From assembly GCF_004123295.1 (NCBI RefSeq), contig NZ_SDMK01000002.1:62001-126000 (forward strand): a DNA stretch of 64,000 nucleotides, given 5' to 3'. Under the pieces are notes generated by a model. That model was not told the origin of the DNA and ran no database searches. It worked only from the letters and a program-made list of their open reading frames with translations. The position numbers were made by a program, and so were the translations under genes. The DNA is from Silvibacterium dinghuense (GTDB taxonomy: Bacteria > Acidobacteriota > Terriglobia > Terriglobales > Acidobacteriaceae). Numbering within the stretch: position 1 is the stretch's first letter; each line of letters starts with the position of its first letter. Below, in pieces: positions 20,172-63,208 of the stretch.

Positions 20172-20201
20172 CGCAGCGGCGCAAACAATAGCGCCGCTGC
20201 G
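20172..20201 (-). terminator. GC-rich hairpin between TonB receptor 2 and GH106 B
   Basis: The 11-bp stem CGCAGCGGCGC / GCGCCGCTGCG has an 8-base loop. On the minus strand it comes 15 bases after the receptor stop and is followed by a T-rich stretch. It would act as a partial terminator or as an mRNA-stability element, favouring receptor over rhamnosidase expression. Confidence 0.6.
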
Positions 20202-23737: not shown

Positions 23738-23833
23738 GTGACGCCTCCGGAAATTGCCGCGAAGAGCCTGCTCTTCGAAGACCGGAGGCCATGCTGAGTG
23801 GCCCATAGATCAACCAGCAAGTGAATTTACCGG

Positions 23834-34301: not shown

Positions 34302-34302
34302 G

Positions 34303-35664: not shown

Positions 35665-35803
35665 CGATTGCACGGTTGTGTTCCGCAGATCGTCCTCGCG
35701 ATACTTGCATAGCATACCGATTCCAGTGGGGCTGGCGGCGTTGTGTGCGTCAGGCCGAATATGTCCCAGTTATGCCGTCAAACGGGTTAGGCATAGGGAC
35801 GGT

Positions 35804-36622: not shown

Positions 36623-36664
36623 GGCCGCTACTTTAGTGAGGATGCGACACGACTGGCTTCTCAC

Positions 36665-36694
36665 TTTTGTCGAAGTTGTTATCATTTTTTGTCG
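36665..36694. promoter_or_regulatory. Direct repeats between PhyH and AraC genes (candidate AraC sites)
   Basis: TTTTGTCG occurs twice, at 36665-36672 and 36687-36694, with starts 22 bases apart. Two same-facing half-sites about two helical turns apart is the normal layout for AraC-family activators. The second copy abuts the ATG at 36697, leaving no room for a ribosome-binding site. Confidence 0.4.
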
Positions 36695-36696
36695 CT

Positions 36697-40601: not shown

Positions 40602-40604
40602 GCC

Positions 40605-43018: not shown

Positions 43019-43054
43019 TCACCTTTTAGGCCGGCCACAAAGGCTTCTGAAATC

Positions 43055-44209
43055 ATGCGAACGATTACTTTTCTACAACCGCGTGTTCTGACGTTTGGAA
43101 ACGGTTGTCTGCCGGATGCAGTGACATATCTGCGGGAGACGCCGCACACACGCATTCATATCCTTGGATCACCCTCGCTTTCGCAGACAATTGAGGTATT
43201 GAGCGGGCAACTTGCGCATGCAGGATGTTCAGTGACGGCGCAGCTTGCTGCACGTGCCGAGCCGACGATCCGTGACTTTAATCTGGCACTGGAAACTGCG
43301 CGCAATGCAAGCCCAACGTGCGTTCTGGGTATCGGCGGTGGGAGCACGCTCGACCTGGCGAAACTGGTGGCTGCCTTCGTCAATAGCACGCAACGGGTAG
43401 AGGAGAGCTTCGGTATCGGCCTGTTGCGGGAGCGCACGTGCGGGCTGGTCTGCATGCCGACGACATCGGGTACGGGCAGCGAGGCCTCTCCGAACGCTAT
43501 TTTGCTGGATGAAGCAGCGCAGCTAAAGAAGGGTGTGATCAGTCCGCATCTGGTGCCGGATGCAACCTTCATCGATCCATCGCTTACAGAGAGCGTTCCT
43601 CCGGAGGTGACTGCGGCGACGGGGCTCGATGCCTTGACACACTGCATCGAGGCATACACAAACAGACATGCGCATCCTCTGGTGGATGTATATGCGCTCG
43701 AAGGCGTGCGGCTGGCAGCTCGATTTCTTGTAAGGGCCGTACAGGATGGACGAGATCGCGAGGCTCGTGAGGGGATGGCACGAGCGAGTCTCTATGGTGG
43801 CCTGTGTCTTGGTCCAGTGAATACTGCGGCGGTGCATGCGCTGGCTTATCCGCTGGGCGGAGAGTTTCATCTTCCGCATGGGCTTTCCAATGCAGTGCTG
43901 TTGCCGGCTGTTTTTCGTTTCAATGCCGAAGCCGCGCTGGAGCGCCATGCTGCGGTTGCGCTCGCCTTGGGGGCAGAGACGGGAGTGGATGCGATGGAGA
44001 CAGCGGAAAATGGCGCCCGCGCACTCGAAGACTTAGCACGGGCCTGCGGAGTGGAGATGGATCTGGAAAAGCACGGGCTGCGGAGGGATGCAATCCCGAA
44101 GATGGCCGAAGTCGCGCTTAGTGTGCAGCGGCTGTTGCGGAATAATCCGCGTGAGGTAACGCTCGAAGCTGCGCAGCAGATTTACGCACAGTGCTTTGGC
44201 AAGTCCTGA
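43055..44209 (+). CDS. Iron-containing alcohol dehydrogenase (lactaldehyde/maleylacetate reductase type)
   Basis: 384 residues, cytosolic. A Rossmann-like N-domain holds the nucleotide motif GIGGGSTLDLAK, then PTTSGTGSEAS. The helical C-domain carries the metal ligands D192 and H196 (LDALTHCIEAY), H261 (HALAYPLGG) and H275 (LPHGLSN). Group III alcohol dehydrogenases reduce aldehydes such as lactaldehyde or glycolaldehyde, or keto acids such as maleylacetate, with NAD(P)H. Placed 36 bases after an aldolase expected to release a small aldehyde, reduction of lactaldehyde or a related aldehyde is the simplest role. Last gene of the operon, before a hairpin. Confidence 0.88.
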   Translation: MRTITFLQPRVLTFGNGCLPDAVTYLRETPHTRIHILGSPSLSQTIEVLSGQLAHAGCSVTAQLAARAEPTIRDFNLALETARNASPTCVLGIGGGSTLDLAKLVAAFVNSTQRVEESFGIGLLRERTCGLVCMPTTSGTGSEASPNAILLDEAAQLKKGVISPHLVPDATFIDPSLTESVPPEVTAATGLDALTHCIEAYTNRHAHPLVDVYALEGVRLAARFLVRAVQDGRDREAREGMARASLYGGLCLGPVNTAAVHALAYPLGGEFHLPHGLSNAVLLPAVFRFNAEAALERHAAVALALGAETGVDAMETAENGARALEDLARACGVEMDLEKHGLRRDAIPKMAEVALSVQRLLRNNPREVTLEAAQQIYAQCFGKS

Positions 44210-44248: not shown

Positions 44249-45418
44249 TCAGGAGCGAGGGACTTCCGCGAAAGAAAGATGGACGTGCCGGATGGCGGTG
44301 CGATGCCAGGTGTAGGTGATTTCCAGATCGCCGTTGCGTGTCTGGATGATGGCAGGGTACGAGTATTCTCCTTCTCCCTGCTCGAGTGTTGCGAAGACGC
44401 GAAAGTGCTCGCCGTCGGTACTGATGGCGAGGTTGAGTGGTGAGCGTCCGCGCGGAGTGTCGTTGAAGATCATGATCACGCGGCCGTCGGGACGGTTGTT
44501 TTTGCCGAGCAGAGACACGGCGTCGAGTCCGGAATTGTTGCTGGGCAGATCAAGGAAATGAGTCTTTGTCCAGGTGAGTCCCTGGTCGTAGGAGTCGGCT
44601 ACAACAATCTTTGCGGCAAGCGTGCGAGATCGTGCATAGAGACGCAGATGCGCAGGCCCGAGAGACACGACGGATGGTTGAATGATGCCGTCGAAGGCGC
44701 GTGGTCCTTTGTCTTTCTCGCGCAGTTCGGGTGAGCTGAGAGAGGGTTCAGGCGCTGGCGGCTCTGCCTTATCCTGGGCTTCTGTCACTGTGATTGGACC
44801 AATCTTTGTCCATGTGGCGCCATCATCGGTGCTCCGTTCGATCCATGAGGCCCAAGCTTTGTAGGCCTCAACGGAGGAACCGCTGACGATGAGGTGATCC
44901 GGCAGCACCAGCGGCTTGGTGCGGCTGGGACCGATGATGCCCGCAGGCAGGCGCTCGGGACTCGACCAGCTGCGGCCTTCATCCGTGCTCGAGATGCGAA
45001 CGGCAGACCATTCGCGCGGATTATCTCCGGTCTTGTAGTAGAGCCAGAGTCGACCGTCCTGGGTATGGAAGAGAACTGGATTCCATGTTGGAATGCCTTT
45101 GTCGCCGTCGTGCTCGCGTGCAACTTCTACGGGTGGCGACCAATGGCCGCCAGAGAAACGTGCCGTGTAGATGGCGACGTCGGGCGCGCCCTCCTTGGTG
45201 CCACCAAACCATGCGGCCAGCAATGAGCCATGGCGGAGCTCGATGAGCGTAGAGGCATGACACTGCGCGAAGGAGGCCGAGCCTGGAGCGAAGACAAAGT
45301 CGGTGACCGGGTGAATGCCGGGGTCTGTATTGTGCGCTGGTTTCCATTCCGCAAATGCGGAAATGCAGGTCAGTAGCAGGGAGGCGGCAAGGGTTCGGCG
45401 GAAAGTTCTAGTCATCAT
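44249..45418 (-). CDS. Secreted BNR/Asp-box beta-propeller enzyme (sialidase superfamily)
   Basis: 389 residues with a signal peptide (RRTLAASLLLTCISAFAE). Asp-box-like repeats are seen at STDEGRSW, STDDGATW, DSYDQGLTW and STDGEHF, giving a six-bladed propeller. The sialidase Arg in the usual RIP motif is not present; its place is taken by QCHASTLIE. Sialic-acid cleavage is therefore unlikely, and another exo-acting activity on pectin-type glycans (as known for propeller families GH93 or GH145) is more probable. No close family was recognised. Its start overlaps the stop of the GH30-like gene by 4 bases, and it is the last gene of the GH28 operon. Confidence 0.7.
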   Translation of the reverse strand: MMTRTFRRTLAASLLLTCISAFAEWKPAHNTDPGIHPVTDFVFAPGSASFAQCHASTLIELRHGSLLAAWFGGTKEGAPDVAIYTARFSGGHWSPPVEVAREHDGDKGIPTWNPVLFHTQDGRLWLYYKTGDNPREWSAVRISSTDEGRSWSSPERLPAGIIGPSRTKPLVLPDHLIVSGSSVEAYKAWASWIERSTDDGATWTKIGPITVTEAQDKAEPPAPEPSLSSPELREKDKGPRAFDGIIQPSVVSLGPAHLRLYARSRTLAAKIVVADSYDQGLTWTKTHFLDLPSNNSGLDAVSLLGKNNRPDGRVIMIFNDTPRGRSPLNLAISTDGEHFRVFATLEQGEGEYSYPAIIQTRNGDLEITYTWHRTAIRHVHLSFAEVPRS

Positions 45419-47316: not shown

Positions 47317-48579
47317 TTACTTCCTCTCCATATCGAGACCAGGCCCTTTGAGGATGCTTTCTCCGCTGGACGCAGTCACGACGAAGTCGGTGGCGCGAAT
47401 TTGAGCGTACTGCATTGCTGCACCCTTTTCACTGGCGATATGAACATGGCGCAGGACGAGGTTGCGGATTGGGCTCTCAGGTAGCCCGTAAATCTCCGCG
47501 GCCTGCTTCGCACCCGTGGCACGGACGTTCTCGATCCTGAAGTCATGAAAGCGCGGCGTATGCGGCGTCATGGGTTGCGCCGTGTCTCCGTGTACGCCGC
47601 CGGTGTAGTATGCGGTGATCTGGATAGGCACCTCCACGCCAGAGAGCGTGATGGCCTTGAAGACGAAGTTCCCGATATCATTGCCGCGGCCGCGCGCGCT
47701 CTTGATGCGGATACCTTGCCGGGTGCCCTGAAAAGTGACATGTTCGACGTGCACATCGCGAACACCGCCTGCGGTCTCGCTGCCGATGGACAGCCCATGA
47801 CCATTGCGCAGCGCACAATTCCGAATGGTGATGTGAGTGCTGGGAACATCGGGATCACCGCGCTCGACTAAGCCGCTCTTGATGGCAATGTCATCGTCAC
47901 CGGTGTCGATGAGATCGTGTTCGATGAAGACGTGACTGCTCGAGATGGGATCGATGCCGTCTGTATTCGGTGCGTTACGTCCGGGATTAAGAATCTTGAC
48001 GTTGCGCACGGTGAGGCCATCGCAAAGCACGGCCATGATGTTGTACTGCGGCGAATTCTGGATCGTTACGCCATCGATGCGAATCTTCGAGGAGTGGGTG
48101 AGGTCGAAGAGCATGGGGCGAGGTTTTTCCTTAAGTCCTGCATGGCGGTCGGATTCTTGCTGCGTCCACCAGATCTGGCCATTACCATCGACGATCCCCG
48201 CGCCGGTGAGTGCGATATCCGTCGCGTGATCCGCGTGAAGTAGTGACACGCGACGCCAGGGAGCATCCTCGCGTATTGGATAGTCGTCCATATCGGACGA
48301 TCCAAGGAGCGTAGCGCCGGAGTCGAGCTGGAGCCGGACATGGCTCTTCCACTCAAGTGGCGCAGAAAAATAGGTTCCAGGTGTGAAGCGGACTGTGCCG
48401 CCTGTCTCGGCGCAGCTGTCGATGGCTTTCTGTATGGCGGCGGTGTCCTTGCTGTGACCGTCTCCAGCGGCGCCGAAAGCGCGGACGTCGCAAACCTTGC
48501 CCGAGGCATGAGCGAATGTGGCTACAGACAGGGCGAAACAGAGCAAGGCTGCCTGGCAGGGGGTAGACTTTATTTTCAT
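47317..48579 (-). CDS. Secreted GH28 polygalacturonase-type enzyme
   Basis: 420 residues with a signal peptide ending near FAHASG. The parallel beta-helix begins with VRAFGAAGDG and DTAAIQKAID. All four GH28 motifs are present: NTDGID (205-210), TGDDDIAIK (D228/D229 region), GHGLSIGSE (His 261) and RIKSARG. These give the two-Asp inverting mechanism on alpha-1,4-galacturonan, or exo-action on rhamnogalacturonan. Exo-type is favoured by its place with rhamnosidases, but that is inference. It leads a minus-strand operon (GH28, GH30-like, BNR) and is divergent from GH78 with only 22 bases between annotated starts. Confidence 0.92.
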   Translation of the reverse strand: MKIKSTPCQAALLCFALSVATFAHASGKVCDVRAFGAAGDGHSKDTAAIQKAIDSCAETGGTVRFTPGTYFSAPLEWKSHVRLQLDSGATLLGSSDMDDYPIREDAPWRRVSLLHADHATDIALTGAGIVDGNGQIWWTQQESDRHAGLKEKPRPMLFDLTHSSKIRIDGVTIQNSPQYNIMAVLCDGLTVRNVKILNPGRNAPNTDGIDPISSSHVFIEHDLIDTGDDDIAIKSGLVERGDPDVPSTHITIRNCALRNGHGLSIGSETAGGVRDVHVEHVTFQGTRQGIRIKSARGRGNDIGNFVFKAITLSGVEVPIQITAYYTGGVHGDTAQPMTPHTPRFHDFRIENVRATGAKQAAEIYGLPESPIRNLVLRHVHIASEKGAAMQYAQIRATDFVVTASSGESILKGPGLDMERK

Positions 48580-51035: not shown

Positions 51036-53633
51036 ATGAGGAAGAGGATGAAATTTGCGGCAATGCTGCTGAATGCGGTTGTTCTGGTGCTGTGCGTGGC
51101 TTCATCTGCCAGCGCTCAGCGCATTCCTGGCTACCTGTATGACGAATCGAAGATCGCGTCGTATACGATGCTCGATCCCCTGCGGATGGAGAACGGTAAG
51201 CCAGTGACAAACGCGGCGATGTGGAACGCGCAGCGCAGGCCCGAGATACTGCGGCTCTTCGAAGAGAACGAATTTGGGCGAACGCCAGATGCGGCCAGGG
51301 CCGCGGTGATGCATGCGAAGATCATCGAGCGGAACGACTATGCTCTGAACGGCCTTGCGGTGCGGGAGCAGATCGAGCTGACCTTCGATCCTGCGCCGGG
51401 TGTCACGCCTCCAGCCGAGGCCTCGCGCAGCATGCGCCTGCTGCTCTACGTGCCGCATGTCCAGCATCCCTCTCCGGTAGTGCTGGGGCTTAATTTTCTT
51501 GGTAATCAATCGGTGGTGGATGACGCCGGGATTCTACCGACGCCAGTGTGGTCGAAGCCGAAGGGAAGCACCGCTCTGGTGCATGAACTGCCTGCGGAGA
51601 GTACGCGCGGCAGTGGTGCTCAGCAGTGGCAAGTAGAGATGCTTCTGAAGCACGGCTATGGGCTGGCGACAATCTATTACGGTGATTTAGAGCCAGATTT
51701 TAAGGATGCTTCGCAATACAGCGTGCGACAGCTCTTCGATCGGCCAGGTGCTGTGCAGGCTCAGGACGCATGGGGATCATTGGGTGCGTGGGCCTGGGGA
51801 TTGAGCCGGGCAATGGATTATCTCGAGAACGATCCGCTGGTGGATGCGAGCCACGTTGCGGTTACGGGACACAGTCGTCTGGGCAAAGCTGCGGATTGGG
51901 CTGCGGCGCAGGACACTCGTTTTGCTGCACTGCTCTCGACAGAGAGCGGACATGGCGGCCAGTCGATTCAGCGGCGCGCGCTAGGCGAAACCGTTCAGCA
52001 CCTGGAGCATTCGTTCCCCTACTGGTTTTGTCCGGCATATGCCCAGTGGGTCGGGCACGATAACGAGATCCCCGTCGATGGAAATCTGCTGGTGGCGCTG
52101 GTAGCGCCGAGGCTGCTGTATGTGGCAAGTGCGAAGGAGGATGAATGGTCGGATCCGAAGGGGGAATTCCTGAGCGCGTTGAGCGCCAGCAGCGTCTACC
52201 GTTTGCTCGGCGAGAAGGCTCTCCCTCCAGATATCCCAATGCCGGCGGTAGATACAGCGATCGGCTTTGACGGCGATGTGGCGTATCACGAAAGAGCAGG
52301 GAAGCATGATGTGACGAGCTTCGACTGGGAGCATTACATTGTGTTTCTGAATCGCCATTGGGGCGACCCAGAAACGTTGCCAGCCGTGCCGCCGACAGGA
52401 GAAGTTCCGCCTCCTGCTGCAACCCATGCGGCGAGCAAGGTACAAATCGCAGCATGGCGCCGACAGATGCAGCATGCGCTCTATCTGCCCGGCCAGCCGC
52501 TTGCGCCGCAGACGCAGAATTTCGGCGGCAGCGAGGTGACGCCAGGTGTAACGGTGGAGAAAATCACGTACCAGACGCTCTACGGGCTGCGTGTACCGGC
52601 GGTGATCTATCGTCCGACGGTGCGTCCGGCAAGGAAGTTGCCGGCGCTCGTGATTGTGAATGGGCATGGAGGCGATAAGTCGAGCTGGTATGCCTATTAC
52701 GCAGGCATACTTTATGCGCGAGCTGGAGCCGTGGTGCTCACCTATGACCCCATCGGCGAAGGCGAGCGCAATGACGAGCATAAAACGATGACCGGCGAGC
52801 ACGATCAGCTGGTGTTTTCGCCGAAGAGTATGCCGATCCGCATGGGGGGCTTGATGATCGCCGATGCGATGGGTGCTGTAAGCGCGCTTGCGGCGAGGCC
52901 GGATGTGGATCGGCATCGCATCGGCATGATGGGATTTTCTATGGGGTCGTTCATCGCCGCGCTCACCGGGGCGGCGGACGAGAGAATTCATGCGCTGCTG
53001 CTGGATGGAGGTGGCGACCTGGATGGGGTCAACGGGTATTGGGATTCAGGCCACGCCATCATGTGCCAGGCGGCGCCTTACAAAGCCCTGCGCGTGCTGG
53101 GCGATCGGGGAGCCGTGCTCTATACGCTGAATGCCCGTCGTGGCGACACGTTCGTAATAAATGGGACGGCGGATACAGTCGTGGCGATTCCGACGCATGG
53201 GCCTGAATTCTTCTCCATGCTGCAGACGCGTGTGGTGGCATTGAATGGTGGCGAGAAGGGCGTATTTGCTACCTATTTCGATCCGGGTGCGAGCCACCGT
53301 CCTTCGTGGATGACGCCCACGGCGGCAGCGTGGCTGCATGCGGAGCTGAGGTTTCCCGCGTGGCGCGGCAAGAAGATAGGCGTCATGCCGACGGTGACTA
53401 TCCGTACCTGGGCTGCGAAGGTTGGTTATGCTCTCGGCAAGAGCAGTGGACGCGAAGATCGAGACGCCGGAATTGTGGCCCTCGAGGCAGGTGTGCCCTT
53501 GCTTACCGCGGACCAGCTGGATGTGTTTTCGCCTCCGGAATGGGAGCAGAGAAAAGCAGAGCTGATTTATGCCTCCTGGCTGGGCCGGGCAGCGCAGGCG
53601 GCTACGGCAAGCACTTCCAATAATGGACGTTAA
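51036..53633 (+). CDS. Secreted two-domain esterase: CE15 glucuronoyl esterase fused to a second alpha/beta-hydrolase
   Basis: 865 residues with a signal peptide ending near SSASAQ. Domain 1 (about 30-445) is CE15-like: nucleophile S280 in VTGHSRLGKAA, CPAYAQWV, and His 433 in DWEHYIVFLNRHW. CE15 enzymes split ester links between 4-O-methyl-glucuronate and lignin. Domain 2 (about 490-860) is an acetyl-xylan-esterase-like alpha/beta-hydrolase with an oxyanion-region NGHGG, nucleophile S635 in GFSMGSF and a late His in GASHRPSW. Both triads look complete, so the protein should be bifunctional, removing a glucuronoyl ester and an acyl group from the same chain. Such a fusion is uncommon. It follows GH78 by 7 bases. 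Confidence 0.82.
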   Translation: MRKRMKFAAMLLNAVVLVLCVASSASAQRIPGYLYDESKIASYTMLDPLRMENGKPVTNAAMWNAQRRPEILRLFEENEFGRTPDAARAAVMHAKIIERNDYALNGLAVREQIELTFDPAPGVTPPAEASRSMRLLLYVPHVQHPSPVVLGLNFLGNQSVVDDAGILPTPVWSKPKGSTALVHELPAESTRGSGAQQWQVEMLLKHGYGLATIYYGDLEPDFKDASQYSVRQLFDRPGAVQAQDAWGSLGAWAWGLSRAMDYLENDPLVDASHVAVTGHSRLGKAADWAAAQDTRFAALLSTESGHGGQSIQRRALGETVQHLEHSFPYWFCPAYAQWVGHDNEIPVDGNLLVALVAPRLLYVASAKEDEWSDPKGEFLSALSASSVYRLLGEKALPPDIPMPAVDTAIGFDGDVAYHERAGKHDVTSFDWEHYIVFLNRHWGDPETLPAVPPTGEVPPPAATHAASKVQIAAWRRQMQHALYLPGQPLAPQTQNFGGSEVTPGVTVEKITYQTLYGLRVPAVIYRPTVRPARKLPALVIVNGHGGDKSSWYAYYAGILYARAGAVVLTYDPIGEGERNDEHKTMTGEHDQLVFSPKSMPIRMGGLMIADAMGAVSALAARPDVDRHRIGMMGFSMGSFIAALTGAADERIHALLLDGGGDLDGVNGYWDSGHAIMCQAAPYKALRVLGDRGAVLYTLNARRGDTFVINGTADTVVAIPTHGPEFFSMLQTRVVALNGGEKGVFATYFDPGASHRPSWMTPTAAAWLHAELRFPAWRGKKIGVMPTVTIRTWAAKVGYALGKSSGREDRDAGIVALEAGVPLLTADQLDVFSPPEWEQRKAELIYASWLGRAAQAATASTSNNGR

Positions 53634-53696: not shown

Positions 53697-55349
53697 ATGT
53701 CCTGCCATCGCGTGCTCCTTATCTGCTGCTTTCTTCTGTTGCCGCTGGTTCCCAGTAGCACCTGGGCTGAGACTTCGGCTATGGTGCTGCAGCCTGCGGA
53801 TTATCGGCACTATGTGGAGCAATTCGAAGCCGATGAGCGGGCCGCGACGGGGAAGGTGTATGACGGCGAGCCTCAGGCAGACGGCCTTACACCGGAACCA
53901 GCGTGGGCGTGGATGGAGCGTGAGCTGCCCTGGTTCGACAGCTCTGACAAGGCCGTCGAGGAGATGTACTACTTTCGCTGGTATGCATGGAAGAAGCATC
54001 TGGTGAAAACGCCGCATGGCTATGTGATCACGGAATGGTTGCCGAAGCCGGAAGTGAAAGATGGCAGCTATGGTGCGCTGCCGGATGCGGCTCCGTTTCA
54101 TCTGGATGAAGCGCGCTGGCTGCATACGCGGGCGATTGCGGAAGACGATGCACGGTTCTGGTTCCAGCCTGAGAACGATGTACGGAAATATTCCGACGCC
54201 ATGGCGACGGCGGTGCGATCGGTCATGCTCGCCAATGGCGACAACGCATTGGCGACAAGTCTCCTGCCAGAAATGAAGCGGGTATACGGGGATTGGGAAC
54301 GGACGCAGCAGGACTCGAATGGGCTGTTCTGGTCGATCGATACGCGGGATGCGATGGAGAAGTCGATCAGCGGTGACGGTTACCGACCCACTCTGAACAG
54401 TTACATGGAATCCGACGCGCGGACTATCGCCGCAACCGCGCGGCTGGCGCATGACGAAACAACAGCGCGCGAGTATGAGGCCAAGGCAGACAAACTACAT
54501 CAGTTGATTGAGACTGTGTTGTGGAATCCGAAGGATGAATTCTACGAAGTGGTTTCCCCGGCAAAGGATTCGGGGATTCGCGCTCAGAAGAAATTTGTGG
54601 ATTCCGGAACGACGATGCAGTTCTCCGGCGTGCGTGAGTTAATTGGTTATCTGCCGTGGGAATATAGCGAGCCGGCGCAGGACCATGACGTGGCTTGGAG
54701 GCAACTCTTCGCCCCGCAGGGCTTTGACGGGCATTACGGCGCGACCACAGCGGAGCGCCGCAGTCCGCGATTTCGTTTCGCTTCCTCCGATCAGTGCACA
54801 TGGAACGGACCGGCATGGCCGTTCGCGATGACGCAGACGCTGCAGGCACTTGCATCCTATCTCGATGGAGCAGGCAAGCACGTATTGGACGGTGCGGACT
54901 ACATGCGGCTTTTCGATCGCTATGTGCTGGCGCAGCACATCAAGCTGAAAGATGGCCGCATGATCGATTGGATCGATGAGGACTATGACGCCGACACGGA
55001 TGAGTGGATTGCGAAGCGGATGCTGATCGAGAAGAACAAACAGGTGGGACGTGGCAACTATTACAACCACTCCGGCTTTGCTGATCCGCTGATTACAGGA
55101 GTTATCGGGCTGCGGCCCAGGGCTGATGACCGCATTGTCGTGCAGCCGCTGGTGCGCGCATGGAGCTACTTTGCCATCGATGCGTTGCCTTATCACGGAC
55201 ATCTACTGACGATTGCCTGGGATGCGACCGGCAAGCGATACAGGCATGGCAAAGGCCTGTGGCTGGCAGTCGATGGCCGCATCATAGCCCGGCGCACAAC
55301 CTTGGGCACACTCGAAACACGCTTGAACGCAACCAAGGAGAAACGATGA
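53697..55349 (+). CDS. Secreted (alpha/alpha)6-barrel glycoside hydrolase, MGH1-like
   Basis: 550 residues with a signal peptide (HRVLLICCFLLLPLVPSSTWAE). The mature part resembles the glycosidase fold of MGH1, GH37 and GH63: MYYFRWYAWKKH, then YMESDARTIAATARLAHD, SSDQCTWNGPAWPF and YYNHSGFADPLITGVIGLRP. WNGPAWPF matches the conserved W-x-GP-x-W motif of the group. The acidic pair likely to be catalytic cannot be fixed by eye. Activity might be on an alpha-linked pectic side-chain sugar; the CAZy family is unknown to me. It ends in an ATGA overlap with the FGE/BNR fusion gene, so the two are translated together. Confidence 0.62.
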   Translation: MSCHRVLLICCFLLLPLVPSSTWAETSAMVLQPADYRHYVEQFEADERAATGKVYDGEPQADGLTPEPAWAWMERELPWFDSSDKAVEEMYYFRWYAWKKHLVKTPHGYVITEWLPKPEVKDGSYGALPDAAPFHLDEARWLHTRAIAEDDARFWFQPENDVRKYSDAMATAVRSVMLANGDNALATSLLPEMKRVYGDWERTQQDSNGLFWSIDTRDAMEKSISGDGYRPTLNSYMESDARTIAATARLAHDETTAREYEAKADKLHQLIETVLWNPKDEFYEVVSPAKDSGIRAQKKFVDSGTTMQFSGVRELIGYLPWEYSEPAQDHDVAWRQLFAPQGFDGHYGATTAERRSPRFRFASSDQCTWNGPAWPFAMTQTLQALASYLDGAGKHVLDGADYMRLFDRYVLAQHIKLKDGRMIDWIDEDYDADTDEWIAKRMLIEKNKQVGRGNYYNHSGFADPLITGVIGLRPRADDRIVVQPLVRAWSYFAIDALPYHGHLLTIAWDATGKRYRHGKGLWLAVDGRIIARRTTLGTLETRLNATKEKR

Positions 55350-57787
55350 CGCTGGCTGTAACACGGATGGGCCGTCTGACTGCCTGTTGGGGTACAGCGC
55401 TTCTGTGCTGCCTGGTCGCAACGGCTCAGAAGGATGGCGTGCTGGCGCGGATGGCTGGTGAAGCCCCGGTAATGGCTGCGAATGGCGTGCCGGCAACCGT
55501 GAATATTCCGGCGGGAAGCTTTGAGATGGGCGCGGATGGTGAGACCCTCGATGCTTCGATAACAAAGGGCTATGGCGTGATGTCGTCACGTCCGAAGCAT
55601 GGAGATTTCGATGAGAAGCCGGCGCACCGAGTAAGGATCACGCGCAGCTTTCGCATGAGCGTCACACAGATTTCTCCTGAGGAGTATGCGCAATTTGATC
55701 CGACGTACAAGGCTCATGCCTCAACGCCCGCGTACGCGGCTGGTGTGAGTTGGGATCAGGCTATGGCGTACTGCCGCTGGCTGAGTCGCAAGACGGGCAA
55801 GCCGTGGCGGTTGCCGACAGAAGCCGAATGGGAGTATGCAGCACGCGCTGGCGGTACAAAGATCTACGGCGCAACAGATTCGCCGATGCCAGTGGATCAG
55901 CCGAATGCTTTCGGCGTAAAGAATATGGAGGTGGGACGCCCGGAATGGACTCTCGATTGGTACGGACCATACCAGCCAGAGGAGATTGCGGATCCAACCG
56001 GCGTTGCGAGCGGTATGACCAAGGCCATCCGTGGCGGCGGTCTCGACTGGCGCCACACGGCGACGAAGACCTCACCCGATCTGGATGTGCCGGCAACCGC
56101 TTCGTATTTTGATCGGCCGGCAAATCGCGCGAGCCTGCCGCCCACGTATAAATCGGACACGGGTAACGTGGGCTTTCGTGTTGTGCAGGCAGCGATGCCG
56201 AAGGTGAATACGACGCCACCTCGTCAGTATTTCTTTATGTCGGCAGTGAAGCAGCGGTCGCTGGCAGGCGGTCCGGCACGCTCCCAGAGCGTGGATACGC
56301 CGGATGCATCGACGCCAATCTATCGCACGCACGAGCTGTTTCCGGATCTCGGCGGGAAGAGCATGATGGGCATCGGTTGGCGCCTGGGCATCGCTGAAGG
56401 GATCGGCGTGAATTATCACAACTCCGCCATCCAGGTACTGCCCAATGGCGATCTGCTCGCGGCGTTTTACAACTCTCCGGATCATGAAGACGACCCGGAC
56501 CAGACGATTATGACGATGCGCCGTCGTGCCGGAGCGAACGAATGGGATATGCCTGAGCCTTGGCCGATCTTTGCCGATGCGGGGCTCGCCGGACCAGTGA
56601 TCTGGAACGATCCTGCGCATCAGCAGCAGGCGGGTGGCAAGGTCTGGTTCTTCTGGGGATTCGCAAGGCTCATCGGTGCCCCTCCATTTGCATGGGCTAC
56701 GAGCGACGACAACGGTGCGACATGGAGTGCTGCACATTTTCCGGCATTCCCGCAGCCGATCGGGCGTTATGTTTCACAGCCAATCAACTCGATCGTACGC
56801 GGGCCGGATGGTGCGATTTATATGCCCACCGATTCGACTGGAAGAGACTCCGACGGCAATGGCTCTATCAGCGCGGTATGGCGCACGGACGATGAAGGCA
56901 AGAGCTGGGCCGACACGGGAGGACGCACAGCGGGGCGGCACACCACGATCGTGTTTGCTGAAAACGGCGACTTGCTGGGCTTCGGCGGAAAGAATTCGAA
57001 TATCGATGGCCGCATGCCGCTGGCAACATCGAAGGATGATGGCAAGACCTGGGTCAAATCGAAGCTGCCTTTCGATCCTTTGCTCTCCGGCGAGCGCCCG
57101 AGCGTGATCCGGCTGAAGAGCGGACGCTTATTTTTTGTTGCCGACAGAAATCCGAATCATCAAAAGCATGTCCACAAGGATGGTGCCTATGTGGCACTCT
57201 CTGACGATGATGGAAAAACCTGGGCGGTGAAGTCACTGCCTGAAAACATCCTGACGGTGGGCTACACCACGGCTACGCAGGGACCGGACGGCATGATCCA
57301 CATCGTAACAACAAAGAACACGGTGAATTACGAGATCGAGCTGAATGAAGCCTGGGTACTGGATAAATCCGCAGGCGAAGAAAACGCAGAGCCAGAGCAG
57401 GTAAAGGACCGCAAGAGCTATACGGAACGCTATCCGGGAGGCCACGTGAGGGCAACGTGGAGCGTTGGTCGTGCCGTTGATGGTCGCTTACTGCTGGATG
57501 GGGCAGAGAAGTTCTTCTATCCGGATGGAAAGCTGATGTGGGCGGTGAATTTTCGCGCAAGTGAGAAGACAGGCGAGGAACGATGGCTTCGTGAGAATGG
57601 CACGCCGATCTGGGTGAAGACTTATGCAGAAAATGGTATGTGGACCTGGGAGAACTTCGACGCGTCGGGCAGGCGCATCGCCATCTCGCATTGGAAGGGC
57701 AAGCATTTGCTGAGCAGCGATGTGCCCGATGGCCCTGTGGATAAGCTGCCGGGGGTGGATAAGATGCCTACTCCAGAAGGGATGTAA
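55346..57787 (+). CDS. Secreted fusion: FGE-sulfatase fold + BNR beta-propeller + C-terminal repeat domain
   Basis: About 813 residues. The ATG at 55346 overlaps the previous stop and has AAGGAG upstream; the longer frame to 55160 is inside the previous gene. After a signal peptide (near VATAQ), residues about 50-290 match the formylglycine-generating-enzyme fold: NIPAGSFEMGAD, SWDQAMAYCRWLS, RLPTEAEWEYAARAGG, RGGGLDWRH and GNVGFRVV. The paired cysteines needed for sulfatase maturation are missing. Residues about 330-680 are an Asp-box propeller (SDDNGATW, TDDEGKSW, SKDDGKTW, SDDDGKTW). The last 120 residues resemble short MORN-like repeats (FYPDGKLMW, WENFDASGRR). Probably a carbohydrate-binding or exo-hydrolase protein; the reaction is unknown. 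Confidence 0.7.
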   Translation: MTLAVTRMGRLTACWGTALLCCLVATAQKDGVLARMAGEAPVMAANGVPATVNIPAGSFEMGADGETLDASITKGYGVMSSRPKHGDFDEKPAHRVRITRSFRMSVTQISPEEYAQFDPTYKAHASTPAYAAGVSWDQAMAYCRWLSRKTGKPWRLPTEAEWEYAARAGGTKIYGATDSPMPVDQPNAFGVKNMEVGRPEWTLDWYGPYQPEEIADPTGVASGMTKAIRGGGLDWRHTATKTSPDLDVPATASYFDRPANRASLPPTYKSDTGNVGFRVVQAAMPKVNTTPPRQYFFMSAVKQRSLAGGPARSQSVDTPDASTPIYRTHELFPDLGGKSMMGIGWRLGIAEGIGVNYHNSAIQVLPNGDLLAAFYNSPDHEDDPDQTIMTMRRRAGANEWDMPEPWPIFADAGLAGPVIWNDPAHQQQAGGKVWFFWGFARLIGAPPFAWATSDDNGATWSAAHFPAFPQPIGRYVSQPINSIVRGPDGAIYMPTDSTGRDSDGNGSISAVWRTDDEGKSWADTGGRTAGRHTTIVFAENGDLLGFGGKNSNIDGRMPLATSKDDGKTWVKSKLPFDPLLSGERPSVIRLKSGRLFFVADRNPNHQKHVHKDGAYVALSDDDGKTWAVKSLPENILTVGYTTATQGPDGMIHIVTTKNTVNYEIELNEAWVLDKSAGEENAEPEQVKDRKSYTERYPGGHVRATWSVGRAVDGRLLLDGAEKFFYPDGKLMWAVNFRASEKTGEERWLRENGTPIWVKTYAENGMWTWENFDASGRRIAISHWKGKHLLSSDVPDGPVDKLPGVDKMPTPEGM

Positions 57788-57789
57788 GC

Positions 57790-58764
57790 GTGAGACGGAG
57801 CATGCAAATTGGCGCGATGCTTCTGGCTGCAGTTGTGCCGGCAATGGCGCAGGCGCTGAAGGCCGGTGATCCATATGTCTTTGCTTATTTCAGGGAACCG
57901 GGTAATCAGGGCATCTACTTTGCACTGAGCCGCGACGGTTACCACTACACTCCGCTCAACGATGGGCAGCCGTGGATTAGACCCACGGCTCCGGGTGAGA
58001 TCATGCGTGACGTCTACATCACGCGGAATCCGGATGGGCACGGCTTTCGGATGGTCTTCACCTGGGCCTGGCACGGAGATTCGATCGGTGTAGCAAGCTC
58101 AGATGACCTGATGCACTGGTCGCCGCAGCGTGATGTGAAGATCATGAGCGATTTTCCGTCGGTGCAGAATACGTGGGCTCCGGAGACTTACTGGGATGTG
58201 AAGAAGAAACAGTGGCTGATCGTGTGGGCAAGCTCGTTTGCGGCCGCATCGGGGAGCAAAGATAAGGGTGAGGGGCTTCGTCTGTGGTCGTCATGGACAC
58301 GCGACTGGCAGAGCTTTACGAAGCCGGAGAAGTTCTTCGACCGTGGCTATCCGGTGATCGACGCCACCATGTTTCATCGTGAAATGCATGGGAAGAAAGA
58401 TGTGGTGATGGTTTTTAAGGATCAGACGACAGACCCGTTGCGCTATAACGAGCGGTGGGTAGCCGGCCCGACAGTGGCCGGTCCCTGGGGCGAAGCTTCG
58501 GGGCCAATCAACGAGAGTTGGTCCGAGGGGCCAAGTGTGATCCATGTGAAAGACAAATGGGTCGTCTTCTACGATCATTACCGCTCTCCCCGGGCACGCT
58601 TCGAAGCGGTCGAGACCTCGGACTGGATTCACTGGGAAAGCGCGGATGACGCCATCGATCTTCCCGAAGGTTCGAAGCACGGCAGCTTCTTCCAGGTGAC
58701 GAAGCAAGAAGCGCAGCGGCTGCTCAGCCGCCACGATACTCCATCTGTTGCAACGCAGCCCTGA
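57790..58764 (+). CDS. Secreted GH43-like five-bladed propeller glycosidase
   Basis: 324 residues from a GTG that follows the previous TAA by 2 bases, with AGAAGGGA upstream. A short signal peptide (MQIGAMLLAAVVPAMAQ) is used whichever start is right. The propeller shows FAYFRE near the first blade, RDVYITR, TWAPETYWD, PVIDATMF and SEGPSVIHVKDKWVVFYDHY. The Asp of VIDATMF and the Glu of SEGPS fit the GH43 modulator Asp and acid Glu; the general-base Asp of the first blade is less clear. GH43 members are mostly arabinofuranosidases, xylosidases or galactosidases. Convergent with the next gene with 2 bases between stops. Last gene of the GH78 operon. Confidence 0.72.
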   Translation: MRRSMQIGAMLLAAVVPAMAQALKAGDPYVFAYFREPGNQGIYFALSRDGYHYTPLNDGQPWIRPTAPGEIMRDVYITRNPDGHGFRMVFTWAWHGDSIGVASSDDLMHWSPQRDVKIMSDFPSVQNTWAPETYWDVKKKQWLIVWASSFAAASGSKDKGEGLRLWSSWTRDWQSFTKPEKFFDRGYPVIDATMFHREMHGKKDVVMVFKDQTTDPLRYNERWVAGPTVAGPWGEASGPINESWSEGPSVIHVKDKWVVFYDHYRSPRARFEAVETSDWIHWESADDAIDLPEGSKHGSFFQVTKQEAQRLLSRHDTPSVATQP

Positions 58765-58766
58765 GG

Positions 58767-61520
58767 CTAATCCTCGAAGAGCCAATCCAGATTCGGTGGC
58801 TGCTTGCTGTTCGGGTCAAAGGCAACGTGCGGCGTAACGTGCGTATCCGCTGGGATGAAGCCCAGAACAACATAGGCTCCTTTGCCCAGGTCGAGATCGT
58901 TTTCACCAGCAGGAAGTGGTTTTGCCCACACGCTGATGGGCAATCCCTTCTGCTGTGCGACCGCATCGGGTAGCAGGATGTTCCACTGCTCAGTATCGGG
59001 TGAGACATTCATGGCCTTGCGCGAGTTCGACTTAAAGAAGCCGACAAGAATTTGTGCCGGGTGATCGAGGGTAAAACGGATCGGTGTCTCCTGGTGGATG
59101 GAGAGCCGGATGCCCTTGAGGCCGTCGAGTTCAGGAGAGAGTGCGGTGATTAGCTCCTGCTGGTCGGTGTAAAGGCTCACACCTTTGTTTACGGTGAAGA
59201 CTTCACCGCCTCCGCCGTCGAGAGTGAATCCAACCTGCGGCAAAGGCCCGTTGCTGTGTGCAGTTTCAACCGCCGACCCGGAGGCCAGCGCGCTGAGGCG
59301 ATGATCGAAGATGGCAAGCTCTTTTTGATAGACAGGCAAAAGCTCGCGCCAGTGATTCGTATCCGGGCCGCCGCGCACGGGGATCTGCCGCTGCGAAGTC
59401 TCCATGCCGGCCGCGTTGCGATACGTGTGCTCCGTGAGGCTGGAGAGTTCTGCAAAGTGCTGCACGCTCTCGGCCAGCAATGGCTGCGCCGCGGTGAGGT
59501 GTGCCACATTGCGGTCATAACCGTAACGCATCACCAGTGCAGCTGCCTGCACCTTCGCGTTGTAGAAGGCCATGAGCGCTGCAATGCAGCGCATATCGTT
59601 TACCACTCTCTCATACTCAGGCTGCGCGGAGGCCGCAATGCCAGGCGATGCAGCTTCTGCTTCTTTGACCGCTTTCGCAGACTTTTCAGCTGCGTCAGCT
59701 GCAACGCTCAGTGGGCTTTCGCCATGATGCTTGCCGCCATTGATTTCATTTGCTACCCACTCATTTAGCTCCTCACCGTCCGGAGCATCAGCAGTCCAAA
59801 GCGTGGTTGCTGGATTAAATCTTGCAGCATCGATGAGCTGCGGCATGGTCATGCCCAGCGAGAGCACCTCACGATTTCCTTCGGTAATGCCGAGGCGGCG
59901 GATAACCTCCGGAGCTGCCACGCCGGAATCTTCATACGCTGCCAGCAGGTCGCGTCCAGCATCCAGTTGAGCCGCTGTGTAGTCGTGCGGTTGGGCCGTG
60001 AAGGTGTCCAGGCTTTCGAGACCGACGACTGTGTCGCTATGTCCCTGGGCATCGATGCCGCCGGGCACGGCAAACCGGCGTGTAAACTGCTCCGCCCAGT
60101 ATTGCTGTTCCATTGCCGGATCGCGTTCCGGGTTCCAGGCATAACGCGCCCAGCTGGCAAACCAGATCCAGTCGCGGTCTGTCTGTGACAGTAACGGTTC
60201 CGTATTGTCTGCGGAAACAGGCCAATCCCAGTAGCGCAGGGGATAGACATGCACGCCGCCGATGCCGAGACGCACAAAGTTGATGGCTGTCTCGCGTACA
60301 AAATCGGGATCGCCCCAACGGAAAGGCTCGAGGTTCGATAGGAGATGCATGTTCACGATGGTGTCGTTGGAGTTGGCCACCATCATCTGGAATTTCTGCC
60401 GGACGCTGCCGCGGATGTTGGTCCAGGTCAACGACTCTCCATTCCATTTCCACATGCTGTCGATATTCGAATAGAGCGGTTTCGCATCGGCGAGGACTTT
60501 GTCGATATCTGTGGCGTGCGCACGCACTACGATGGGCGGCTGCGGAACAGGATGGCCGACGGCCTTTTCTTCTTCCGCAAGGCCGTCGAGCACGCCAGGG
60601 ATGATTGTTTTCGTCAGCCATTCAGGTCCGTAGTGCGGGCCCATCGCCTCACCGAGCGTCATGAAGATGCCGACGTTTGGATATTCGCGGATGAACTCGG
60701 AGATGCAGTAGCGGGTGTATTCGCTGGCGAGCGGGCTGGGAGCAGAGAGGTGATAGGGAAGGTTGTGCGCGCGAGCGAAAGCATGCGAGAGGTGGATGTT
60801 GTAGAAGCCCTGCAAAATCCAGATGCCACGCTTGTCGGCTTCTTTCGTGAGCCAGCGGAACATGGCAATGTTTTGCTCGAGTTGTGCATCAGGAAGCTCC
60901 TGTGCCTCCGGATATTTCGATAGCTTCAGCAGAGAAGTAAAGGGATGTCCGTTCCAGAGGAAGAGCGCATTTGTGCGCTGTTCAGCTAACTGATCGAGAT
61001 AGCGAGTCCACGCAGCTTTGTCGTAGAACCAGGGAAAGCTCTGCGGTGTGTAGGGGTAGTCGTATTCTGCGCCGTCGTATGTAATTTCAGGTTTCTGCAG
61101 TCCGATGACGGCTCCACGAATCTTGAGCTGGGGATGGTCTTCGAAGTCGAGCTCACGCGGCAACGCGTGCTTCGCATGGATGCGGTCGATCAGCTCTTCC
61201 GTGCCATAGAAAACACCCGAAGGGTCATAACCGGCGACGAGAATCGTGTTGCCGATGCGCCGGAGAATAAAAGCTTCTTTCGCGCCGGGCCACAGGTCGG
61301 GAATTGTTTTGTCATAGCGGAGGAGCAGCGCATCATGTCGCGTAGCGAGCAGGATCGTCTCACGGCCAGGCAGGCTGGATACCGCATCGTGAAGAAGCTC
61401 AGCAGCATATTGCTCACGAGGTGTGGCAGTAGCGGAGATCTTTATTTGCGGTGCGGCATATGCTGCAGAGGTAGAGCAGGCTGCGGCGAAGAAGAGAAGT
61501 ATGGCACGGTGCAAAACCAT
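58767..61520 (-). CDS. Large secreted glycosidase with GH20/GH67-type N-domain and TIM barrel
   Basis: 917 residues with a signal peptide (LHRAILLFFAAACSTSAAYA). Residues about 25-130 form the small alpha/beta N-domain shared by GH20, GH67 and GH84 enzymes (GVFYGTEELIDRI before the barrel). The barrel begins at LKIRGAVIGLQKP and includes NALFLWNGHP, IFMTLGEAMG and IDSMWKWNGESL with candidate catalytic acids. A helical region about 560-700 and a C-terminal beta region (PLPQVGFTLDGGGGEVF onward) follow. It is not a standard GH67: length and motifs differ, and alpha-glucuronidase-type or novel activity are both open. It lies 2 bases downstream of the DUF5060 gene on the same strand. Confidence 0.55.
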   Translation of the reverse strand: MVLHRAILLFFAAACSTSAAYAAPQIKISATATPREQYAAELLHDAVSSLPGRETILLATRHDALLLRYDKTIPDLWPGAKEAFILRRIGNTILVAGYDPSGVFYGTEELIDRIHAKHALPRELDFEDHPQLKIRGAVIGLQKPEITYDGAEYDYPYTPQSFPWFYDKAAWTRYLDQLAEQRTNALFLWNGHPFTSLLKLSKYPEAQELPDAQLEQNIAMFRWLTKEADKRGIWILQGFYNIHLSHAFARAHNLPYHLSAPSPLASEYTRYCISEFIREYPNVGIFMTLGEAMGPHYGPEWLTKTIIPGVLDGLAEEEKAVGHPVPQPPIVVRAHATDIDKVLADAKPLYSNIDSMWKWNGESLTWTNIRGSVRQKFQMMVANSNDTIVNMHLLSNLEPFRWGDPDFVRETAINFVRLGIGGVHVYPLRYWDWPVSADNTEPLLSQTDRDWIWFASWARYAWNPERDPAMEQQYWAEQFTRRFAVPGGIDAQGHSDTVVGLESLDTFTAQPHDYTAAQLDAGRDLLAAYEDSGVAAPEVIRRLGITEGNREVLSLGMTMPQLIDAARFNPATTLWTADAPDGEELNEWVANEINGGKHHGESPLSVAADAAEKSAKAVKEAEAASPGIAASAQPEYERVVNDMRCIAALMAFYNAKVQAAALVMRYGYDRNVAHLTAAQPLLAESVQHFAELSSLTEHTYRNAAGMETSQRQIPVRGGPDTNHWRELLPVYQKELAIFDHRLSALASGSAVETAHSNGPLPQVGFTLDGGGGEVFTVNKGVSLYTDQQELITALSPELDGLKGIRLSIHQETPIRFTLDHPAQILVGFFKSNSRKAMNVSPDTEQWNILLPDAVAQQKGLPISVWAKPLPAGENDLDLGKGAYVVLGFIPADTHVTPHVAFDPNSKQPPNLDWLFED

Positions 61521-61522
61521 CG

Positions 61523-63142
61523 TCAGTCCTGCACCTCTGGTGTCGGAGCTTTGCCGGTGGGTTTGCCGATCACATCGGATATCTTGCGAAAGAGAATGGC
61601 CTGATAAGGGCGGTTAGGGAGTGCGACGCGCGACTTTCCGGAGAACATTCCGTCAAGCTTAGTCTGCGTCATGGCATAAGGATCGATGAGCGTTGCTTCG
61701 AAGTTAGCCGTGTTGGGCAGGGGAAATTCATAACGCGCGGGGCGATGGTAGTCGAAGTACCACAGGTACAGTTCATTTGGGGTGCCGGAGCAGAGGTAGT
61801 ACGAGCCTTCATATTCATTCAAGCCAACCTGCGTATGCGCGGCAACCAGGTCATGGAGAAAGTGAATCCGGGATGCGGATTCTCCGCGAAGACGTCCAGC
61901 GTCGGACCAGCTCGGCTCATGCGCATGAGGTCCGTTCTCATCGGCGATGAAGACTTCTCCATGCGTTGCGTAGACACCCCGCACGGCAGCAAGCCAGAAG
62001 CGTCGGGTCATCTCTTCCGCAGAGAGATTCCCCCAACGCCGTTCCACGTCGCCTTCATACTGGATTTCGTCATAAATAATGGGCTTGTTCCATGCCGCGC
62101 GGCGCTCGGCAGACTTCTCGAAGTCATAGCTCTGCAGGCTGGCATGCGTGCACCAGGGTTTCGAATGGTCATAGATGACGGCAGAATGATGGATCGAGCG
62201 TAGATGGCTGTATGGATCTTCGGCTTGCACGATACGAAAGAAGCGATCCCAGTCGGCGGTGGTCTTGGACTTCACCAGGTCATACTCGTTGGCGATGGAC
62301 CACCAGACATTGCGATATGCCGCGAGGCGCGCGACAACATAGCGCAGGTAAAAATCATCGACCTCGGACGGCATAGCCTTGTATCCCCACGCATCGTAAG
62401 GATGGAAGAGGATACAGTCGGCCTCGATGCCCGCGGATTGAAGCTCGACGATGCGTTTCTCGAGCAATTGGAAGTATGCAGGGTTAAAGCGCGCGTAGTC
62501 ATTTGTGCCGCCGCGACTGTCTGCCGCTGCGCCGGTATTGGGAAAAGGAAGAATCTGAGCTCCCTGGCCCAGGGGCTTGGGCAGCACACAGGCGCGTGTT
62601 TTGTTGAAAGCCCCTTTCATGCCGGCAAGCGAATCTGCGGCGTGTGCATCCCCGGTGAAAAAATAGGCGTAGGTTGTGGTGCCGAAGGGGAAGTATGGTG
62701 TGCGATCGGCATGGAGAAAGTGATAGCGGTGCGCAGTCGTTACAGGGCCGTGATTCTCGGGGGAAGGTGCGGTGCAGTCAAAGCGGGTGCTGTGGCCGTT
62801 GAGTTCCTTTGACGAGCTAGCAGTGACGCAGCTCCACGGCCCCTGCATATCGGGCATAAATCGGACCTTGTAAACGCCATCTCCGTCGTAGAAGCCCTTG
62901 ACCTCAACGGTGCGATGTTCATGAGTAAAAGCGGCGCTGAATGTGACATCCTGGAACGGGTTGCCCGAGGCTGGGCCATGCAGCGCGAGTTCGAAGAGCC
63001 CCCATTGTTCAACCCTCTGCAGAGTGTCAGGAGAAGGAGAAGCTGTGGATCGGGTTTTCTCCGCGCTTTTGGCGAAAGCTGCCGGCTGCAGCGTGACGGC
63101 CATTGTGGCCGCGCCAAACTTGAGCATCTCTCTTCGATCCAT
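61523..63142 (-). CDS. Tat-exported DUF5060/DUF4038-like TIM-barrel glycosidase
   Basis: About 539 residues from the ATG at 63142, followed at once by a twin-arginine signal (MDRREMLKFGAATMAV). An upstream in-frame ATG at 63175 adds residues before it. Residues about 40-125 form a DUF5060 beta-sandwich (WGLFELALHGP, then KVRFMPDMQGPWSC). The barrel follows with FPFGTTTYAY, WWSIANEYDLVKSK and IYDEIQYEGDV, giving Glu residues at the usual clan GH-A positions. A C-terminal beta domain (LYLWYFDYHRPARYEF) resembles DUF5605. Related DUF4038-type enzymes include apiosidases (GH140) and other pectin-active hydrolases. A promoter and the IclR regulator lie just upstream. Confidence 0.7.
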   Translation of the reverse strand: MDRREMLKFGAATMAVTLQPAAFAKSAEKTRSTASPSPDTLQRVEQWGLFELALHGPASGNPFQDVTFSAAFTHEHRTVEVKGFYDGDGVYKVRFMPDMQGPWSCVTASSSKELNGHSTRFDCTAPSPENHGPVTTAHRYHFLHADRTPYFPFGTTTYAYFFTGDAHAADSLAGMKGAFNKTRACVLPKPLGQGAQILPFPNTGAAADSRGGTNDYARFNPAYFQLLEKRIVELQSAGIEADCILFHPYDAWGYKAMPSEVDDFYLRYVVARLAAYRNVWWSIANEYDLVKSKTTADWDRFFRIVQAEDPYSHLRSIHHSAVIYDHSKPWCTHASLQSYDFEKSAERRAAWNKPIIYDEIQYEGDVERRWGNLSAEEMTRRFWLAAVRGVYATHGEVFIADENGPHAHEPSWSDAGRLRGESASRIHFLHDLVAAHTQVGLNEYEGSYYLCSGTPNELYLWYFDYHRPARYEFPLPNTANFEATLIDPYAMTQTKLDGMFSGKSRVALPNRPYQAILFRKISDVIGKPTGKAPTPEVQD

Positions 63143-63208
63143 CTTTCCGTCCATCCCTGCAATTTGTCCCGGCACATGTCTTTCCGCCGCCGTACTGGAC
63201 GCATTGAG

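Follow-up and report, generated by a model that had tools for sequence, protein, structure and literature searches.

The window analysed here is a stretch of 64,000 nucleotides of Silvibacterium dinghuense (NCBI RefSeq assembly GCF_004123295.1, contig NZ_SDMK01000002.1, positions 62,001 to 126,000 of the forward strand). The gene at positions 55346–57787 of the window (+ strand) encodes a protein of 813 aa in which a domain with the fold of the formylglycine-generating enzyme (FGE), a propeller and a MORN-like tail are joined; the frame starts with ATG at 55346 and stops with TAA at 57785–57787, and the product is probably secreted (signal-peptide-like residues 1–28, read by eye). Pfam finds FGE-sulfatase in two stretches (best residues 49–182, E 4e-23, over the cut-off), BNR_2 (PF13088) at residues 371–653 (E 5e-18, 66.0 bits against a gathering cut-off of 31.4) and, weakly, MORN_2 (16.2 bits against 29.6). 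The full AlphaFold2 model, built with 24 homologues, has a mean pLDDT of 84.3 and a pTM of 0.86. In the tail (57401–57718, + strand; residues 686–791), which marks one clade of relatives, beta strands are modelled with confidence.

A first-pass annotation of this DNA had the frame, start, stop and quoted motifs right, and the architecture it described (a cysteine-less FGE fold, a four-Asp-box propeller and a MORN-like tail) agrees with Pfam, a motif scan and the model. It had also raised the possibility of a sequencing or assembly join, which we reject because relatives in 14 genomes align over nearly the full length with 54–72% identity, and distant fusions occur on plasmids of Croceibacterium (34% identity, residues 49–784), Spirosoma and the haloarchaeon Halomontanus (residues 72–675). 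It saw a real fusion and judged its general nature well, including the FGE fold, the exo-type propeller and the pectic setting; it missed the sialidase superfamily, the GH142-like neighbour, the rhamnogalacturonan II (RG-II) locus with its operon and a tail-less sister clade, and its interpretation is partly supported. Among the papers listed, judged by titles and the beginnings of abstracts, no relevant study of a fusion of FGE and sialidase was seen.

The FGE-fold domain without a catalytic cysteine pair

The domain lies at 55490–56191 (+ strand; residues 49–282) and, folded alone, reaches a pLDDT of 82.0. Its model resembles PvdO (Z 22.7), Treponema denticola variable protein 1 (Z 22.1) and human FGE (1y1e, Z 20.9) in VIA comparisons with the PDB, and PvdO is also the top PDB match of the FGE profile (E 2e-29), which was made from 21 of 24 rows, L093, L094 and L096 being left out (numbers with L, G and C are our own labels for loci, genomes and contigs). 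The VIA lists were filled by sialidases for the propeller and by FGE-fold or related lectin-fold proteins for the FGE domain, and the absence of a family from them is meaningless. The fold is that of FGE; the catalytic cysteine pair (336/341 in the human enzyme) is absent. The only cysteines of the fusion protein are 14, 21 and 22, all within the signal-peptide-like start, and 143, and the mature protein would therefore be without any cysteine pair, with only Cys143 left. Loss of FGE catalysis is near certain. The fusion shares its fold with FGE/SUMF1, PvdO and other FGE-fold proteins, but differs from them in the absent cysteine pair and the attached glycosidase-type propeller.

The sulfatase family PF00884 has eight matches in the genome and none on the contig of the window (C2), so the earlier statement that the window holds no sulfatase extends to the whole contig. 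The genome has another FGE-family gene, a 354-aa open frame at C4:398045–398899, with a sulfatase match some 4 kb away. Sulfatase maturation by the fusion, which the first reading had already called unlikely, is rejected on the absence of the cysteine pair, the absence of a sulfatase match on the contig and the presence of this other gene. When the genome contigs were searched with the fusion protein, 19 loci were found, all matching within residues 50–281, the FGE part, only.

One might suppose that the FGE domain keeps an unrecognized activity, such as a PvdO- or EgtB-like oxidation, and that the propeller only binds sugar: PvdO heads both the profile matches and the VIA list, and the plasmid records label the fusion a SUMF1/EgtB/PvdO nonheme iron enzyme. 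We consider this very improbable, given the missing cysteine pair, the invariant His, Glu, Arg and Tyr kept by the propeller, and the equal score of the Treponema variable protein 1, presumably a binding protein; the invariant residues of the FGE domain are read as structural. The earlier suggestion that the fold has become a binding or positioning module is compatible with the data and stands as a suggestion.

The sialidase-type propeller and its conserved residues

The propeller occupies residues 322–676 (56309–57373, + strand). Residues 322–673 superimpose on the Micromonospora viridifaciens sialidase 2ber with a VIA Z of 33.1 (root mean square deviation 2.8, 317 residues aligned), and Foldseek matches the propeller to sialidases at E 3e-16. 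From the structure matches of both parts, an FGE fold is joined to a sialidase-superfamily propeller, and on the model the superfamily fold is near certain. Four Asp boxes lie at 56702–56725 (residues 453–460), 56885–56908 (514–521), 57029–57052 (562–569) and 57200–57223 (619–626), all on the + strand; 2000 shuffles of residues 291–690 gave 0.01 on average and never more than one.

Tyr640 (codon 57263–57265, + strand) probably corresponds to Tyr370, the nucleophile of the sialidase, which PDB titles name as an active-site residue and nucleophilic tyrosine; the ends of the structural alignment (673 to 403, 676 to 406) place it there. It is Tyr in all 24 aligned rows, the window included, and H358, E381, R392, D496, H532, R584, R589 and Q645 are likewise invariant. 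In the HMMER alignment, His358 faces the Arg of the sialidase RIP motif (YRIPAI) and His532 faces the Glu of TTEAQ (TEAQ motif), the partner of the nucleophilic Tyr in sialidases. A second sialidase Arg aligns at or beside Lys549, depending on the gap; at this position 18 rows have Lys and six have Arg, and the residue faces an Arg of stand-alone BNR_2 propellers.

The fusion thus has the fold, the Asp boxes and the tyrosine of GH33 sialidases (Micromonospora viridifaciens 1EUR/2BER), but its arginine triad is partly remodelled, with a His for the RIP Arg, and another His stands in place of the Glu paired with Tyr. By strict features it is not a GH33 member; it may well work like one. With Pfam BNR_2 propellers it shares the over-cut-off score and the motif residues; the stand-alone ones are without FGE domain or tail. 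A GH145-type rhamnosidase identity was rejected, the only match being a stray one (E 0.07) to the model of BT3686, a GH145 enzyme.

The two substituted histidines might suit a non-catalytic surface or periplasmic protein that binds pectic fragments. Against this, Tyr640, Glu381, Arg392, Arg584 and Arg589 are invariant not only in the 24 rows but also in the Croceibacterium, Spirosoma and Halomontanus proteins, and the gene pairing described below resembles BT1020, both halves of which are said to be enzymes; a purely binding role appears improbable.

The GH142-like partner, the RG-II-type setting and the linked operon

The gene immediately upstream of the fusion (53697–55349, + strand) overlaps it by 4 bp (ATGA). 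Translational coupling to an MGH1-like hydrolase had been proposed at this point; the overlap is consistent with coupling, which would still be a deduction from it, and the gene is better described as GH142-like than as MGH1-like (PF22422). Its residues 18–539 match residues 608–1101 of PDB 5mqr (BT_1020) with E 2.9e-91, and it is thus homologous over the C-terminal domain of a protein that PMC7263609 describes as a GH142 beta-L-arabinofuranosidase. A BT1020-like protein of Bacteroides finegoldii (1106 aa), encoded beside GH43, GH78, GH28, DUF3826 and GH140 genes, matches the GH142-like gene with E 3e-98, its C-terminal half being 36% identical.

In BT1020 of Bacteroides thetaiotaomicron (5MQR/5MQS) a sialidase-like and a GH142 half are combined in one protein, whereas two genes are found here. 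Its N-terminal half is reportedly, in the work of Ndeh from 2017, a hydrolase that acts on 3-deoxy-D-lyxo-hept-2-ulosaric acid (Dha) in chain D of RG-II, the GH142 half being the arabinofuranosidase for the same chain (Araf-Dha). The GH142 half is homologous to the coupled gene, and the B. finegoldii locus shares the GH43 neighbour; the window propeller, however, is of another subfamily, with an FGE domain and a tail added. The association with GH142 is thus shared with the BT1020-type Dha hydrolase and a close propeller kinship is not: 5mqr is absent from the best 60 of 101 and the best 60 of 102 PDB profile matches of the propeller, and a direct comparison with the B. finegoldii relative gave the low scores stated further below.

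Downstream of the fusion, after 2 bp, lies a GH43-like gene (57790–58764, + strand; GH43 20.6 bits against a cut-off of 32.2, NF052546 89.8 against 500), followed on the - strand by a GH138-like alpha-D-galacturonidase (58767–61520; PDB 6hzf, BPa0997, E 7e-155; NF049878 795 bits against a cut-off of 1300) and an apiosidase-like (DUF5060/DUF5605) hydrolase (61523–63175). The window further holds a GH28 gene (47317–48579, - strand), a CE15-like gene with a second alpha/beta-hydrolase domain (51036–53633, + strand), a GH95 gene (8036–10429, + strand) and two GH106 alpha-L-rhamnosidase genes (13713–17096 and 17237–20188, - strand). Families of these kinds serve the breakdown of RG-II, and with its GH138-like, GH28, GH95, GH106 and CE15-like genes the window looks like an RG-II locus. 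According to PMC12282258, chain D of RG-II is a disaccharide in which Dha carries a terminal beta-1,5-Araf (arabinofuranose), and PMC12168206 states that in plants Dha has to date been found only in RG-II.

Five genes on the + strand at 38542–44209 form the operon considered here. A DUF1537-type kinase (38542–39624; Pfam SBD_N/NBD_C) has the D-threonate kinase model NF047819 as its best, at 161 bits against a cut-off of 450, and this model, although its cut-off is not reached, is also the top one in four relatives. A PdxA-type dehydrogenase (39624–40601), proposed to be a PdxA2, scores over the cut-off of TIGR00557 (340 bits) and below that of the D-threonate 4-phosphate dehydrogenase model (280 against 583). 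The sodium:solute symporter (40605–42188) has SiaT (5nv9) as its nearest solved relative (E 1.4e-71, 245 bits; next match 135 bits), the structure being identified in PMC5931594 as that of a sialic acid symporter. An HpcH/HpaI-type pyruvate aldolase (42185–43018; TIGR02311 107 bits against a cut-off of 369) and an iron-containing alcohol dehydrogenase (Fe-ADH), a proposed aldehyde reductase (43055–44209), complete the series.

Within the family, 17 of 300 genomes matched the fusion profile, as did 15 of 396 in a phylum sample; at most three candidates per genome were scored in the family and two in the phylum, and these counts are lower bounds. In a tree of 24 propellers, the 18 with a MORN-like tail form a clade (support 100/100), with the six tail-less ones on the other side. 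L083 (G250), L095, a second fusion piece on L093, L097 (FGE part only) and the G471 match were left out of the 18 tailed loci, and L090 was grouped with the tail-less loci though absent from the tree; some loci are contig pieces (L066 3.4 kb, L090 7.4 kb, L082 5.8 kb). The tail-less G001 and G318 were kept apart in the 300-genome comparison, in which the fusion and aldolase searches are assumed to cover the same genomes. The aldolase (E<=1e-50) occurs in 23 of these genomes: in 14 of 15 with a tailed fusion against nine of 285 others (Fisher p 3e-17, uncorrected for shared ancestry), or, with G001 and G318 included, in 14 of 17 against nine of 283 (p 1e-15).

Linkage points the same way. At least one of kinase, PdxA2, symporter and aldolase lies in the stretches of 13 of 18 tailed-clade loci as against none of seven tail-less ones (p 0.002), with limits for calling neighbour genes chosen by us and with G096 and G129 counted on a longer stretch than other loci, their operon appearing only in the 15 kb beyond the first 20 kb. 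A GH142-like gene is in the fetched stretch of 13 of the 18 tailed loci, window included. On the plasmid of Croceibacterium, a sphingomonad, a pectin island carries kinase, PdxA, an aldolase of the dihydrodipicolinate synthase (DHDPS) family, fusion and Fe-ADH side by side, the fusion between aldolase and Fe-ADH, and a gene labelled 'GH65', which follows the fusion at a distance of about 5 kb, shares 35% identity with the GH142-like gene of the window (E 1e-99). No HpaI-like aldolase was matched in the plasmids at E<=1e-40. In Spirosoma and Halomontanus, whose fusions are tail-less, a DHDPS-family gene lies near the fusion, as it does in three tail-less stretches of the window's own family (L078, L086, L088); DHDPS-family genes being common, this proximity lends weak support. 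The haloarchaeal fusion is found on plasmids of two strains (L141 8156–10120, L146 5950–7914), adjoining the DHDPS-family gene.

Proposed release and use of Dha

We hypothesize, with confidence a little above even and on the strength of sequence and model, that the fusion is a Dha-releasing exo-glycosidase of an RG-II locus in which the FGE fold is a non-catalytic platform. The folds, the missing cysteine pair, the conserved Tyr, the linkage and co-occurrence of the genes and the recurrence of the set on a sphingomonad plasmid are observed; the substrate, the direction and each reaction we infer as follows. The coupled GH142-like enzyme would remove the capping beta-L-arabinofuranose from side chain D, after which the secreted fusion, a retaining enzyme with Tyr640 as nucleophile, would release Dha. 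The part of the arginine triad in binding the substrate would be taken by His358, Glu381, Arg392, Lys549 (Arg in the tail-less clade) and nearby residues. The FGE fold, dead as FGE, would be a platform or substrate-positioning module, and the MORN-like tail would be structural. Freed Dha would be imported by the SiaT-like symporter and split by the HpaI-type aldolase into pyruvate and 2,3-dihydroxy-4-oxobutanoate, which the Fe-ADH would reduce to D-threonate; the kinase would phosphorylate this, and PdxA2 would oxidize it with decarboxylation to dihydroxyacetone phosphate (DHAP). D-Threonate is converted to DHAP by such a kinase and PdxA2. Read chemically, Dha is 4,5,6-trihydroxy-2-oxoheptanedioate, a hydroxylated HpaI substrate, and once pyruvate has been split off, its D-lyxo configuration would leave a C4 aldehyde acid of threo form. 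The logic resembles that of sialic acid catabolism (sialidase, SiaT, Neu5Ac lyase), with sialidase-type release, a SiaT-like symporter and a pyruvate aldolase, but the proposed products here are D-threonate and DHAP and not an amino sugar.

Judged by titles and the beginnings of abstracts, no study of bacterial use of Dha after its release was seen among the open-access papers listed, and the catabolic pathway may be undescribed. Whether the fusions form a new family of FGE-fused, His-for-Arg, Dha-releasing glycosidases, together with a first complete Dha pathway (through an HpaI- or DHDPS-type retro-aldol step) across Sphingomonadales and the phylum of the window, and with tail-less relatives from Bacteroidota and haloarchaea lying near genes of the DHDPS family, is a wider claim that we would place slightly short of even. 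There is a fair chance that CAZy would class the fusion apart. Dha is among the oddest of plant sugars, and the locus makes its bacterial use testable with a handful of genes; the hypothesis also offers a function for proteins annotated only as SUMF1/EgtB/PvdO nonheme iron enzymes and, if true, would mean that an FGE fold has been recruited into a glycosidase. This hypothesis and the alternatives to it partly overlap, and the likelihoods attached to them need not add up to certainty.

One such alternative concerns a stand-alone BNR_2 propeller (44249–45418, - strand, 244 bits) that is convergent with the operon and shares the motif residues H, E, R, Y and Q with the fusion. Such a propeller might free Dha, with the fusion hydrolysing the other RG-II ulosonate, 3-deoxy-D-manno-oct-2-ulosonic acid (Kdo) of chain C; BNR_2 propellers overlap the kinase gene in G220 and G275 and adjoin the aldolase in G070, and Kdo is named in PMC12282258 as the other ulosonic sugar of RG-II. 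These operon-linked propellers are, however, only 27–29% identical to the one at 44249, the fusion abuts GH142, and in Croceibacterium it stands between aldolase and Fe-ADH with no second propeller annotated in the stretch, for which the gene table is perhaps incomplete. Cleavage of Kdo by an aldolase would give D-arabinose, with no need for threonate kinase or PdxA2. We regard the Kdo assignment as unlikely.

The neighbourhood might instead mislead: the fusion might act as an exo-enzyme on some other pectic sugar, with the operon serving, for example, rhamnonate or glucarate breakdown. Several models give the aldolase similar scores (107 bits for HpaI, 99 and 96 for two deoxyglucarate models, 92 for rhamnonate), and a lactaldehyde-reductase model gives the Fe-ADH 235 bits. 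Neither route is known to use threonate kinase and PdxA2, no rhamnonate or glucarate dehydratase was seen among the part of the window genes that was scanned, and Croceibacterium keeps kinase, PdxA and Fe-ADH together with an aldolase of another family; another sugar is accordingly judged unlikely.

Several observations weigh against release of Dha by the fusion or against its exclusive tie to GH142 and the operon. The spread of the fusion within the family is patchy, a His stands at the RIP arginine, and kinase, aldolase and Fe-ADH fall below every NCBIfam cut-off listed. The Dha-hydrolase half of BT1020 is only remotely similar to the window propeller: the N-terminal half of the B. finegoldii relative scores 18.1 bits (E 5e-8, single target) with a mixed BNR profile and 1.3 bits with the fusion profile. 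The second propeller, at 44249, could do the job of the fusion, or both could share or divide the work. G177 and a second locus of G158 carry a GH142–GH43–GH138–apiosidase cluster that lacks the fusion, and G025 has such a cluster lacking GH138 as well. In another family of the class (f6), six genomes have a GH142 relative in a stretch without a match to either fusion profile. The operon is not nearby at five of the 18 tailed loci (L072, L082, L084, L085, L089); G275, G209 and G659 have operon genes elsewhere in the genome and G296 has the aldolase on another contig. G016 has fusion and GH142 but lacks a close aldolase (the best is 33% identical) and, at E 1e-20, any match to PdxA, and the distant tailed fusions of G575 and G380 have the symporter alone nearby and distant aldolases (26–34% identical). 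The GH142 clusters without fusion and the fusion genome without aldolase count against exclusivity, and a universal dependence of the fusion on GH142 is rejected, since such clusters occur without it and G158 keeps both apart. Among ten genes beside GH142 at the fusion-less loci, none had BNR_2 over the cut-off, one on L118 reaching 20.4 bits against 31.4.

Eight of the nine aldolase loci without fusion were inspected, G084 being left out. G220 has the whole operon, together with the propeller that overlaps its kinase gene; G130 has all five operon genes and G228 four, no propeller being called in either stretch; G025 has symporter and aldolase only; and G086, G139, G165 and G003 have the aldolase alone. 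Operon-linked stand-alone propellers (L129 12873–14111, L138 3966–5240, L087 4947–6158) perhaps replace the fusion.

The propeller at 44249–45418 is 37% identical to one on a plasmid of Rufibacter tibetensis that also carries a GH142-like gene, pectin genes, a four-carbon sugar-acid kinase and a RuBisCO-like gene. In G016 (L072 9363–15544) the fusion–GH142 pair lies beside a sugar-binding-domain regulator, a fucose-isomerase-C protein, a permease, an FGGY kinase and part of a transketolase, perhaps for the use of a sugar such as arabinose. Elsewhere in the window, 5826–7982, 24012–25349 and 20216–23806 encode long proteins for which NCBIfam gives no match at E 1e-4; for the first two, Pfam gives none either. 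Beside the operon, at 29743–38360, lie beta-helix, GH31, MFS, PhyH-like and AraC genes and one unassigned gene, and G129 and G096 have them next to the operon in the same order.

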